This document shows, piece by piece, positions 3,781 to 6,332 of a DNA stretch of 34,007 nt. Under the pieces are notes generated by a model. That model saw only the letters and a program-made list of their open reading frames with translations, was not told where the DNA came from and did no database searches. The translations under genes and the position numbers were made by a program. This DNA is from Gammaproteobacteria bacterium. Its GTDB lineage: Bacteria; Pseudomonadota; Gammaproteobacteria; Pseudomonadales; Azotimanducaceae. Positions within the stretch are counted from its first letter, which is position 1. Every line of letters starts with the position of its first letter. The DNA is taken from contig JAADHW010000046.1 of the NCBI GenBank assembly GCA_013151695.1, positions 1 through 34,007 on the forward strand, in the 5' to 3' direction.

Positions 3781-4449
3781 TTATGCCTTGGGAGAAAGGG
3801 CCTTGGGAGAAGGGGCCTTGGGAGAAGAGGTTTCGGGAGACGCCTTGGGAGTACAGGCGTGCGCCGCTAGACTACTGTCACAAAGGGTGATGGAGCGTAG
3901 TATTTGAGACCACGCCGCCACTTCTGCTTGATCGATAGGGAATTCGGCTTGTTGATCTGCAAGCTGAGGGGGCGTTTTCTCCAGCCGCCAGATTCTAGAT
4001 ATTATGTACAACGCTTTGTTACCGCGAATGACCTTTATCATAGTTAGAATGGGTTTATGGGTGCGGTGATTTTCGCCACACTGAAGTATTCGGACCACTG
4101 ATGGGTAGCCGTTTTCGAATCCAGCGAAGATATTGAAGTCTTCAAAATCGTTGCACAACTTGCTCTGCTGTTCAGCTAAGCCTTGAACAAAGGTTAATGG
4201 ATCAGGTAATCCGGAGCCTGAAAGTGCTTCATAAGACAGTTTTTGCTGCCAAGGAACTGGGCTGTTGGGGGGTAAGAATTCTTCGACGTGCAAATTGCCA
4301 ATATGTTTGTTTATGGCTTGTTCCCAAGCCTCGGGGACCTGAGCATGTAGAGTTTCTGTGTCGGCTTGAGCTGGGGAGTTTGTTTCGCTGGCGGTAGCGC
4401 AGGCACCCAGAGCACAGACGATCAAAAATGTGAGTAAACGCATATTCAT
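3781..4449 (-). CDS. Hypothetical lipoprotein
   Basis: Signal peptide with lipobox: MNMRLLTFLIVCALGAC; (S/P)SPKA repeats at the C-terminus. Confidence 0.75.
   Translation of the reverse strand: MNMRLLTFLIVCALGACATASETNSPAQADTETLHAQVPEAWEQAINKHIGNLHVEEFLPPNSPVPWQQKLSYEALSGSGLPDPLTFVQGLAEQQSKLCNDFEDFNIFAGFENGYPSVVRILQCGENHRTHKPILTMIKVIRGNKALYIISRIWRLEKTPPQLADQQAEFPIDQAEVAAWSQILRSITLCDSSLAAHACTPKASPETSSPKAPSPKALSPKA
3785..3844. repeat. 15-bp tandem repeat (GCCTTGGGAGAA...) in the 3' end of the lipoprotein gene
   Basis: Units 3785-3799, 3800-3814, 3815-3829 and a degenerate 3830-3844; encodes SPKAP/SPKAL/SPKA. Confidence 0.9.
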
Positions 4450-4482
4450 AACCCGTTGTTGGTCCTTGTTAGTTCCTGTTCA

Positions 4483-4657
4483 GAAATTGCCTTCCTGGCA
4501 ATTTCCTACCAACGGTTTCTTGTAGAAACCTTCCAAAACCCTATGGGTTTTGTCTCGTGGCATCTACCGTTGGCAAGCCAACGGGCGACGTTTGCATGCA
4601 AACGCCACTGCCCCTCGCTAGTTCTAGCCCCAAATACTGCGTATTTTGGACTGGAAC
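4483..4657. other. Intergenic array of six consecutive stem-loops
   Basis: H1 GAAATTGCC-TTCCT-GGCAATTTC (4483-4505); H2 GGTTTCT-TGT-AGAAACC (4514-4530); H3 AAAACCC-TAT-GGGTTTT (4535-4551); H4 CCGTTGGC-AA-GCCAACGG (4567-4584); H5 CGTTTGCATGCAAACG (4589-4604), extendable to about 4585-4606; H6 GTTCTAG...AAATAC-TGC-GTATTT...CTGGAAC (4621-4657). Confidence 0.9.
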
Positions 4658-4660
4658 TTA

Positions 4661-5440
4661 TTAGACTTTGGGAAACACCCAGGGATGTGAAGCAGATAAA
4701 CCGCCGTCCACGGGAACCGCTTGTCCGTTTACGTACGAGGCCCTATCGCTCAACAAAAAACACGCCATTTGACCAATCTCTTGCGGTTGGCCGTAACGTT
4801 TGGTCGGGTTGATTTGCCCTATGCGATCATCACTACCTTTGCCACGGGCTCGATCAAATATGGGTTTAGTCATACCGGTTTCGATCAGACCAGGGCAGAT
4901 GGCGTTGATGCGCACGCCCGTACCGTATAGTTGGTAGGCCACGGTTTGGACGATGCTTACCACGCCAGCTTTACTGGCACTGTAGTCAACGCCACCGGCG
5001 TTGGCGCGAAGTGCGGCAACAGAAGCGGTACACAAAATGGATCCAAAGCCTTGTTGGGTAAAATGAGGCACGGTGTGTTTGACCGCCAGAAAGACACTGA
5101 CAGTGTTGACTGTTAATGTTCGTTGCCAATCTTCTACAGTGAGTTCCAACATCGGTTTGCCGCCACCGCCGATGCCTGCGTTTGCGTAAATACCATCTAT
5201 GCGACCAAATTCGCAGATGCAGGTGTCGACGTACCCCTTTACTGCAGCTTCGTCACTGACATCGGCTTGAAGTGAGATCGCTCGTCCACCGGATTCATTG
5301 ATTTGTGCTGCGGTGTCATGCACAGCGTCAGATAAGTCGACACATAAAACTTGAGCGCCAAAATCGGCAGCAAGCTTGCTGCTGGCACGACCTATACCGC
5401 TGGCTGCCCCGGTTATAATGATGTTCTTGTTTTTGAGCAT
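4661..5440 (-). CDS. SDR-family NAD(P)-dependent oxidoreductase
   Basis: MLKNKNIIITGAASGIGRASSKLAADFGAQVLCVD; YSASKAG catalytic motif; NAGIGG. Start at 5440 chosen, since the longer ORF overlaps the upstream gene and the fold begins here. Confidence 0.9.
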   Translation of the reverse strand: MLKNKNIIITGAASGIGRASSKLAADFGAQVLCVDLSDAVHDTAAQINESGGRAISLQADVSDEAAVKGYVDTCICEFGRIDGIYANAGIGGGGKPMLELTVEDWQRTLTVNTVSVFLAVKHTVPHFTQQGFGSILCTASVAALRANAGGVDYSASKAGVVSIVQTVAYQLYGTGVRINAICPGLIETGMTKPIFDRARGKGSDDRIGQINPTKRYGQPQEIGQMACFLLSDRASYVNGQAVPVDGGLSASHPWVFPKV

Positions 5441-5453
5441 AACATCCACTAGA

Positions 5454-6332
5454 TCAATAAACCTCGCTAACAACTTTTTCGACGAATGCTCTCGCACCAC
5501 CTTGTGTAAACCCAGTGCAGTATGTGTGCTTAGGGCCGGAAAAATTGGGATCGCATTCAAATTTCTTATTATGCGCATCTATGCGCGCGCCTCTCTGTTC
5601 GTGCACAAACCAGCCCGCATTGAGGAGCCAAGCTATTGTGGCAGAGTCCCAGGGATGAAAACCCTCATCTACCGGGAAAGTTTTGGTCCAGTGATCACAC
5701 CAGGCGGCGGAGTTGTCGTAAAAATATTGTGCGGTAGGATTACCCTTGGCCTTGATCGTTTGTAAGTCTGACTTGGTAATACAAACCTGGCTCGTGAGTT
5801 CAAATCCCATCAGAACGCAGGGTATATTCGCTGACATTACTTTTTGAGCTGCTTCGATATCGCTTTCGAAATTAAAATCTTGAACAGGTCCGGTGTCGCC
5901 AATATAAAATTGTGCCCCTTTGCTGCGTCCCGCCACCATGATGAGAGTTTCGATGTTATGTAACACTTCAGGATAGTGTTCAACCAAAAGAGCAATGTTT
6001 GTCAGGGGACCAATCGCGGCAATAGTGAGAGGTTGCTTGCGCAGTTGTTCAGCTAAAAACTTTACCGCCGAAGTAACGATGCCATCTACTGCCATTGCTT
6101 CTTGCGCGCCCATGAGGACCGGGACAGCGGCTTTTTTTAATTCTACTATTTCGGTGGCAACGCGATATACCTCCTCAATGGGGCCGTTACCAAATACGCA
6201 AGTTATGCCTAACAATTCTATTGAGCTACTATTAATGGCTTCTACAATAGCAAAACCGTCATCTATATCTCTGGGGCGACCCTGGGCCCAAACACCCAAG
6301 GCAACATCGGTATCTATAATGAGTTTGGTCAT
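5454..6332 (-). CDS. Nucleoside hydrolase-family protein (IUNH-like, atypical N-terminal Asp motif)
   Basis: MTKLIIDTDVALGVWAQGRPRDIDDGFAIVEAINSSSIELLGITCVFGN; AAIGPLTNIALL; VAGRSKG; HPWDSATIAWLL. Confidence 0.82.
   Translation of the reverse strand: MTKLIIDTDVALGVWAQGRPRDIDDGFAIVEAINSSSIELLGITCVFGNGPIEEVYRVATEIVELKKAAVPVLMGAQEAMAVDGIVTSAVKFLAEQLRKQPLTIAAIGPLTNIALLVEHYPEVLHNIETLIMVAGRSKGAQFYIGDTGPVQDFNFESDIEAAQKVMSANIPCVLMGFELTSQVCITKSDLQTIKAKGNPTAQYFYDNSAAWCDHWTKTFPVDEGFHPWDSATIAWLLNAGWFVHEQRGARIDAHNKKFECDPNFSGPKHTYCTGFTQGGARAFVEKVVSEVY

Follow-up and report, generated by a model that had tools for sequence, protein, structure and literature searches.

A BOX/MITE-like mobile element targeted to stop codons in marine Gammaproteobacteria with a candidate CsrA/RsmA-binding RNA

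Bacterial genomes often contain small palindromic repeats, but seldom has it been demonstrated that the internal hairpins are conserved at the RNA level or linked to a particular protein. In Streptococcus pneumoniae, an upstream gene often takes its stop codon from a BOX element (36 cases in a single genome), and RNA processing precedents exist for the ERIC and Correia elements (PMC3049150). GTAG REPs often supply a TAG stop codon (PMC3733652). RsmZ is a 127-nt RNA with eight GGAs, displayed in A(N)GGAX loops whose stems close with a C-G pair and in single-stranded segments (PMC4005645), and TwoAYGGAY (RF01731) has been proposed as a CsrA-binding RNA (PMC4333381). The window analyzed here, a 34,007-nt stretch of DNA, contains a hairpin array between an SDR oxidoreductase gene and a lipoprotein-like gene. 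The array is a copy of a previously undescribed element family found in some marine Gammaproteobacteria. Comparison of the copies establishes the family as a mobile, stop-codon-targeted modular repeat that is flanked by target-site duplications (TSDs) and has a conserved fold. The reading we prefer, with about even confidence, is that the element is mobile, behaves like BOX elements and MITEs, targets stop codons, and carries a probable CsrA/RsmA-binding RNA.

The element family and its modules

A sequence-only reading of the gap had described six successive inverted repeats and had offered two accounts of them, a structured RNA or mobile palindrome-mosaic DNA, with no link to a known family. 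All six repeats are present with the loops it listed. The array stands as described, and its extent was corrected from 4483-4657, which is slightly short, to the limits set by homologous copies (Table 1). A nucleotide search gave eight matches across several contigs of the same genome and, among 58 relatives, matches in three members of the genus (G009, G027, and G031). Twenty-one full copies were aligned (A1) and used to build a covariance model, R1, of 145 positions. The window copy scores 140.8 bits with R1 and 131.7 bits (E 3e-33) with model R2. Insertion of a three-way-junction module cost this copy the GGA loop of H2, and the loop of H5 is the single loop GGA that is left. The SDR ORF was listed with a start at 5578 that overlaps a nucleoside-hydrolase-like ORF upstream (window 5440-5578 and 5454-6332); homologues indicate that the true start is near 5440.

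Table 1. Features of the hairpin element and its neighbors in the window
Feature	Position	Strand	Basis
Full copy of the mobile element (190 bp), with five core hairpins and three-way-junction insert	4470..4659	-	R1/R2 matches; ends from homologous copies
Left target duplication CTAAT, includes SDR stop TAA (4661-4663)	4660..4664	-	Sequence; flank comparison over 52 copies; stop analysis
Right target duplication CTAAC, sharing CTA with the element end	4468..4472	-	Sequence; flank comparison
H1, 19-bp palindrome with GCA triloop; two facing terminal repeats	4619..4659	-	Fold; covariation; copies
Three-way-junction module inserted in place of the H2 GGA loop	4557..4608	-	Alignment A1; other copies
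Hairpins inside the three-way-junction insert	4589-4604 and 4567-4584	-	Sequence
H3, CAAAACCC-ATA-GGGTTTTG hairpin	4534..4552	-	Fold; alignment A1; covariation
H4, GGTTTCT-ACA-AGAAACC hairpin	4514..4530	-	Fold; alignment A1; covariation
H5, GAAATTGCC-AGGAA-GGCAATTTC hairpin; A-GGA-X apical loop with C-G closing pair, Csr/Rsm-type	4483..4505	-	Fold; covariation; loop counts; consensus (PMC4005645)
3' terminal inverted repeat GAACAGGAACTA; family consensus GGACAGAAACTA	4470..4481	-	Homologous copies; flank comparison
SDR oxidoreductase gene, co-directional, upstream; stop TAA 1 nt before the element	4661..5440	-	ORFs; relatives' loci; stop analysis
Lipoprotein-like gene, downstream; start codon 20 nt past the element	3781..4449	-	ORFs; relatives' loci

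R1 located copies in 8 of the 40 genomes of the genus, the source genome and seven others. Counts of strong sense-strand matches are roughly 21 (G009), roughly 17 (G027), 8 (G006), and 5-6 (G019). With R2, which is stricter, 7 near full-length copies were found in the source genome, and across the order (295 genomes; the strict filters lose weak copies) matches were limited to the same genus and G051, a genome of another family. No matches to the element were found in the plasmid, phage, and viral collections. Rfam returned no family at the gathering score for the whole window and 14 other loci. A candidate match to AaHKsRNA22 on the window was rejected (22 bits, far under threshold, without GGA loops). 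Within the genus (g1), elements are confined to some species, in most cases with a genome larger than about 3.9 Mb, and are absent from many species with smaller genomes. One element-free, smaller-genome species (G017) is also without a csrA match.

Intact copies span TAGTNNNTGTCC...GGACANNNACTA and have TAGT...TGTCC/GGACA...ACTA ends. These two sequences are the terminal inverted repeats (TIRs) expected of a MITE. The element is ordered as H1, H2 (GGGC-AGGAC-GCCC), H3, H4, H5, and then the 3' end repeat, and H1 is a 41-base palindrome formed from two facing end repeats. The three-way-junction insert in H2 is common to the window copy, G000:C262, and G009:C382, while in other copies H4 is extended or is separated from H3 by GCGCTTTCAGAATGAAAGCGC. 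Two further arrangements were observed in the source genome. H1 stands alone at L042:741-781 (G000:C205) as a 41-bp near-perfect palindrome with flanks TTAAT/ATTAG, and it may be the minimal mobile unit. A tandem pair of copies with the common junction CTAACTAG is located at L039:133-378 (G000:C176), and the orthologous site in G009 (L145) has a single copy.

Many copies are truncated or degenerate and no autonomous partner was found, which would suit a dead relic family under neutral inheritance only. We regard this explanation as very improbable. The copies in G009 are about 90% identical at separate loci, pointing to activity within the lineage; species differ in the presence or absence of elements; and pairing is retained in diverged copies.

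Insertion next to stop codons

The left and right flanks of the 52 copies were compared. Matches between the two flanks of the same copy total 162, compared to 125.7 with flanks shuffled among copies (0 of 2000 shuffles). The matching pairs include CCGGC/CCGGC, CTGAT/CTGAT, CAAGT/CAAGT, and CTAAG/CTAAG. The target duplication is 4-5 bp with the consensus YTARN, and position -5 by itself has no excess. Integron attC sites and tyrosine-recombinase sites were considered and set aside because the flanks match copy by copy and there are no GTTRRRY ends. At the window locus, the SDR and lipoprotein genes are directly adjacent and element-free in G003, G006, G008, G026, and G031, and G009 carries a shorter element copy. 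The five empty relatives and the shorter copy indicate that the window gap arose by insertion followed by module exchange in one lineage. Mobility of the element is well supported by these comparisons, and the proposal of mobile palindrome-mosaic DNA is borne out by a dispersed, TSD-flanked, modular repeat whose locus is empty in relatives.

The position of the copies relative to genes was determined using ORFs of at least 130 codons that end within about 60 bases of an element end, with genes taken as ORF calls only. A co-directional ORF near the left end stops exactly at the junction in 24 of 29 copies, compared to 2 of 2440 random positions in the same loci (0.08%). Either the duplication supplies the stop as a TAA that lies 1 nt upstream of the element, or, often, the stop is the TAG formed by the first three bases of the element itself. 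Convergent ORFs on the right have an exact junction stop in 11 of 23 cases. The left/right bias (24 versus 11, p = 0.04) is consistent with transcription of the sense strand, and it may also be explained by a preference for a target base or stop codon. The elements immediately follow stop codons, and the gene pairs around them are co-directional or convergent.

This pattern describes a non-autonomous modular element that inserts at YTARN sites, usually stop codons, and duplicates 4-5 bp. Comparison of the copies shows that the upstream frame stays terminated, by the TAA of the duplication or by the first TAG of the element. Because the element directly follows the stop codon, read-through transcription from the upstream gene is expected, and it would place the element in a 3' UTR or an intercistronic mRNA.

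A mobilizing parent was sought by pairing end repeats at IS distance in five genomes (for G006, among the matches listed), and no autonomous element was detected. The Y1 and DDE_Tnp_1 transposase loci that were checked contain neither the TIRs nor the element. An autonomous parent with matching ends, as a MITE would have, was not found in these genomes, which are mostly draft assemblies, so it may be missing from the data. A REP/RAYT origin was rejected on the Y1 loci and an IS4/IS5-type parent on the DDE_Tnp_1 loci, none of which carries the element ends. The source genome has a Y1 (IS200-type) transposase with one in-frame TAG at L158 (G000:C6:9947-10300), unlinked to the element. The sequence-only reading had excluded a REP/BIME and stacked terminators, and we agree on both. 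A REP is a 20-40 bp palindrome with a GTAG/CGTC tag (PMC3733652), and the unit here is a 145-bp ordered array of five hairpins. The gap contains no intrinsic terminator. In a consensus scan, the element also lacked the promoter- and terminator-like sites that an independent sRNA gene would have.

Conservation of the fold and of GGA loops

The minus strand of 4460-4680 (221 bases) has a folding energy of -87.3 kcal/mol, compared to -59.5 ± 4.2 for dinucleotide shuffles (z = -6.57, 0 of 200), and the plus strand also has an excess (z = -5.2). Covariation was measured in two alignments. The structure-free alignment A1 contains two-sided changes in 14 pairs and 46 cells, compared to 7.5 and 12.9 in shuffled alignments (0 of 500 shuffles), and the proposed pairs also outscore every slid version. 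Alignment A3 contains 53 diverged copies, and 38 of 46 pairs have two-sided change with 92.7% of cells paired, percentages that lean upward because A3 was fitted to the structure. The A3 two-sided cells number 298, compared to 85.5 in shuffled controls and to 40-46 in slid controls. The shuffle controls in these analyses overstate significance because the copies are kin. The far lower slid counts show that composition does not explain the covariation signal. There are more G-T than A-C pairs, 120 against 47 overall and 47 against 30 without H1, an excess that favors the sense strand, mainly through H1. These comparisons show that the five core hairpins of the sense strand are maintained by compensatory change, and the fold probably matters as RNA of that strand. 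The structured-RNA and mobile-DNA accounts are supported jointly. The absence of a folding excess, the absence of homologues or covariation, and a match to a known family had been named as grounds for abandoning the array; we found dispersed copies in the same genome and in relatives, with pairs that covary, and none of the three.

The apical loops differ among the hairpins. GGA is in the apical loop of H2 in 41 of the 53 copies, of H5 in 46, and of both in 38, and it is in no H3 loop (0/53). The strict C-A(N)GGAX-G loop is present at H2 in 28 copies and at H5 in 38. Extra GGAs occur in the H4-H5 linker (48 copies) and at the 3' end base (43 copies). GGA loops total 86, compared to 29 in shuffled copies. 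The loops of H1, H3, and H4 are mostly C-GNA-G triloops. The family therefore has the multiple A(N)GGAX hairpin loops that characterize a Csr/Rsm-sequestering RNA. The source genome has two csrA genes, and the one that was fully read is canonical with a VHREEIYQRI segment. The conservation of A(N)GGAX loops as in RsmZ, together with csrA in the same genome, makes a CsrA role a specific, testable proposal, and we infer that the family RNA binds CsrA. GGA is short and CsrA is common, and the match could reflect another loop-binding factor. A literature search returned no papers that treat CsrA and repetitive elements together.

A purely selfish MITE is a possible, distinctly less probable explanation of the same features. 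The hairpins would be kept for recognition of single-stranded or cruciform DNA in transposition and by templated palindrome correction, and the RNA would be functionless. The presence of TIRs and TSDs fits this idea, as do H1, a palindrome of two facing TIRs that is also found alone, and insertion at stop codons, which minimizes harm. The triloops of H1, H3, and H4 also fit, and C-GNA-G triloops are very stable in DNA. However, H2 and H5 keep their GGA despite two-sided changes in the stems, a sister family of different sequence shows this as well, and the G-T excess indicates one strand. An unlikely second idea is that the element is a structured 3' UTR domain for mRNA stability or processing, an RNase E/III site or exonuclease block like those of REP, ERIC, and Correia, with GGA incidental or used by another factor. 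The very stable hairpins located directly after stops in co-directional or convergent pairs are consistent with this role, and the ERIC and Correia precedents (PMC3049150) support it, but stability by itself does not require two particular hairpins to keep their loop sequence or the order of hairpins to be conserved.

A CsrA/RsmA-binding platform is the most likely function. The sense strand is predicted to fold with A(N)GGAX loops at H2 and H5 and with linker GGAs, an arrangement like that of RsmZ/CsrB. Each copy would mark its host mRNA for CsrA or enlarge the pool of CsrA-sequestering sites. Stems that covary, two loops that hold a global-regulator motif, and insertion at stop codons make this a directly testable case. 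If true, a mobile element installs a post-transcriptional regulatory site in 3' UTRs and leaves the genes unbroken.

The sister family was detected by a DNA search around G051. Copies are found in 16 of 77 genomes, all of genus g16 (loci L214, L218, L220, and L225-L253), with up to at least 10 copies per genome. The ends are TAGCAGGCTGTTGAAAAA...TTTTTCAACAACCTGCTA with a CTGCTA terminus. The sequence is different from that of the window family, and the order of the five hairpins is the same. The H2/H5 loops include C-AUGGAG-G, C-AGGGAU-G, and C-AGGGAA-G, and several copies start or finish exactly at stop codons. A tentative proposal is that the two families belong to a superfamily of mobile elements, unrelated in sequence across at least two genera, that carries CsrA-binding RNA domains to gene 3' ends; it would rewire or buffer a global post-transcriptional regulator via stop-codon transposition. 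One sister copy (L226:1570-1662) matches TD-2 of Rfam at 39.6 bits, below the gathering score of 48.7. In the TD-2 consensus, a middle hairpin is flanked by two others whose loops read AUGGAU and ACGGAU, and these two A(N)GGAX loops suggest that TD-2 may itself be a CsrA-type RNA.

Relationship to described systems

TD-2 (RF03162) has the sub-threshold match to one sister-family copy only and none to the window family. GTAG REP/BIMEs, which are mobilized by RAYT, also are intergenic palindromes close to gene ends. REPs are single hairpins of 20-40 bp, whereas the window family is about 145 bp with five ordered hairpins and TSDs, and unlike REP/RAYT its hairpins are absent beside the Y1 transposases examined. 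The MITEs Correia, ERIC, NEMIS, and RUP are likewise short, non-coding, and strongly folding with TIRs and TSDs. The window family differs in its conserved internal multi-hairpin RNA with loop motifs, and no parental IS was found for it. RsmX/Y/Z and CsrB/C also combine several A(N)GGAX loops, with stems closed by a C-G pair, and single-stranded GGAs. In contrast to these RNAs, the window family is multicopy, mobile, and placed after stop codons, with no promoter or terminator of its own found. BOX elements, compared by their published modular plan only, are similar in being modular, stem-loop-forming, and non-autonomous, with a core and optional, exchangeable internal modules, and they differ in sequence and host. 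In the window family, unlike BOX, two hairpins at set positions carry covarying A(N)GGAX loops, the TIR and TSD are defined, and the stop-codon target is near-exact.
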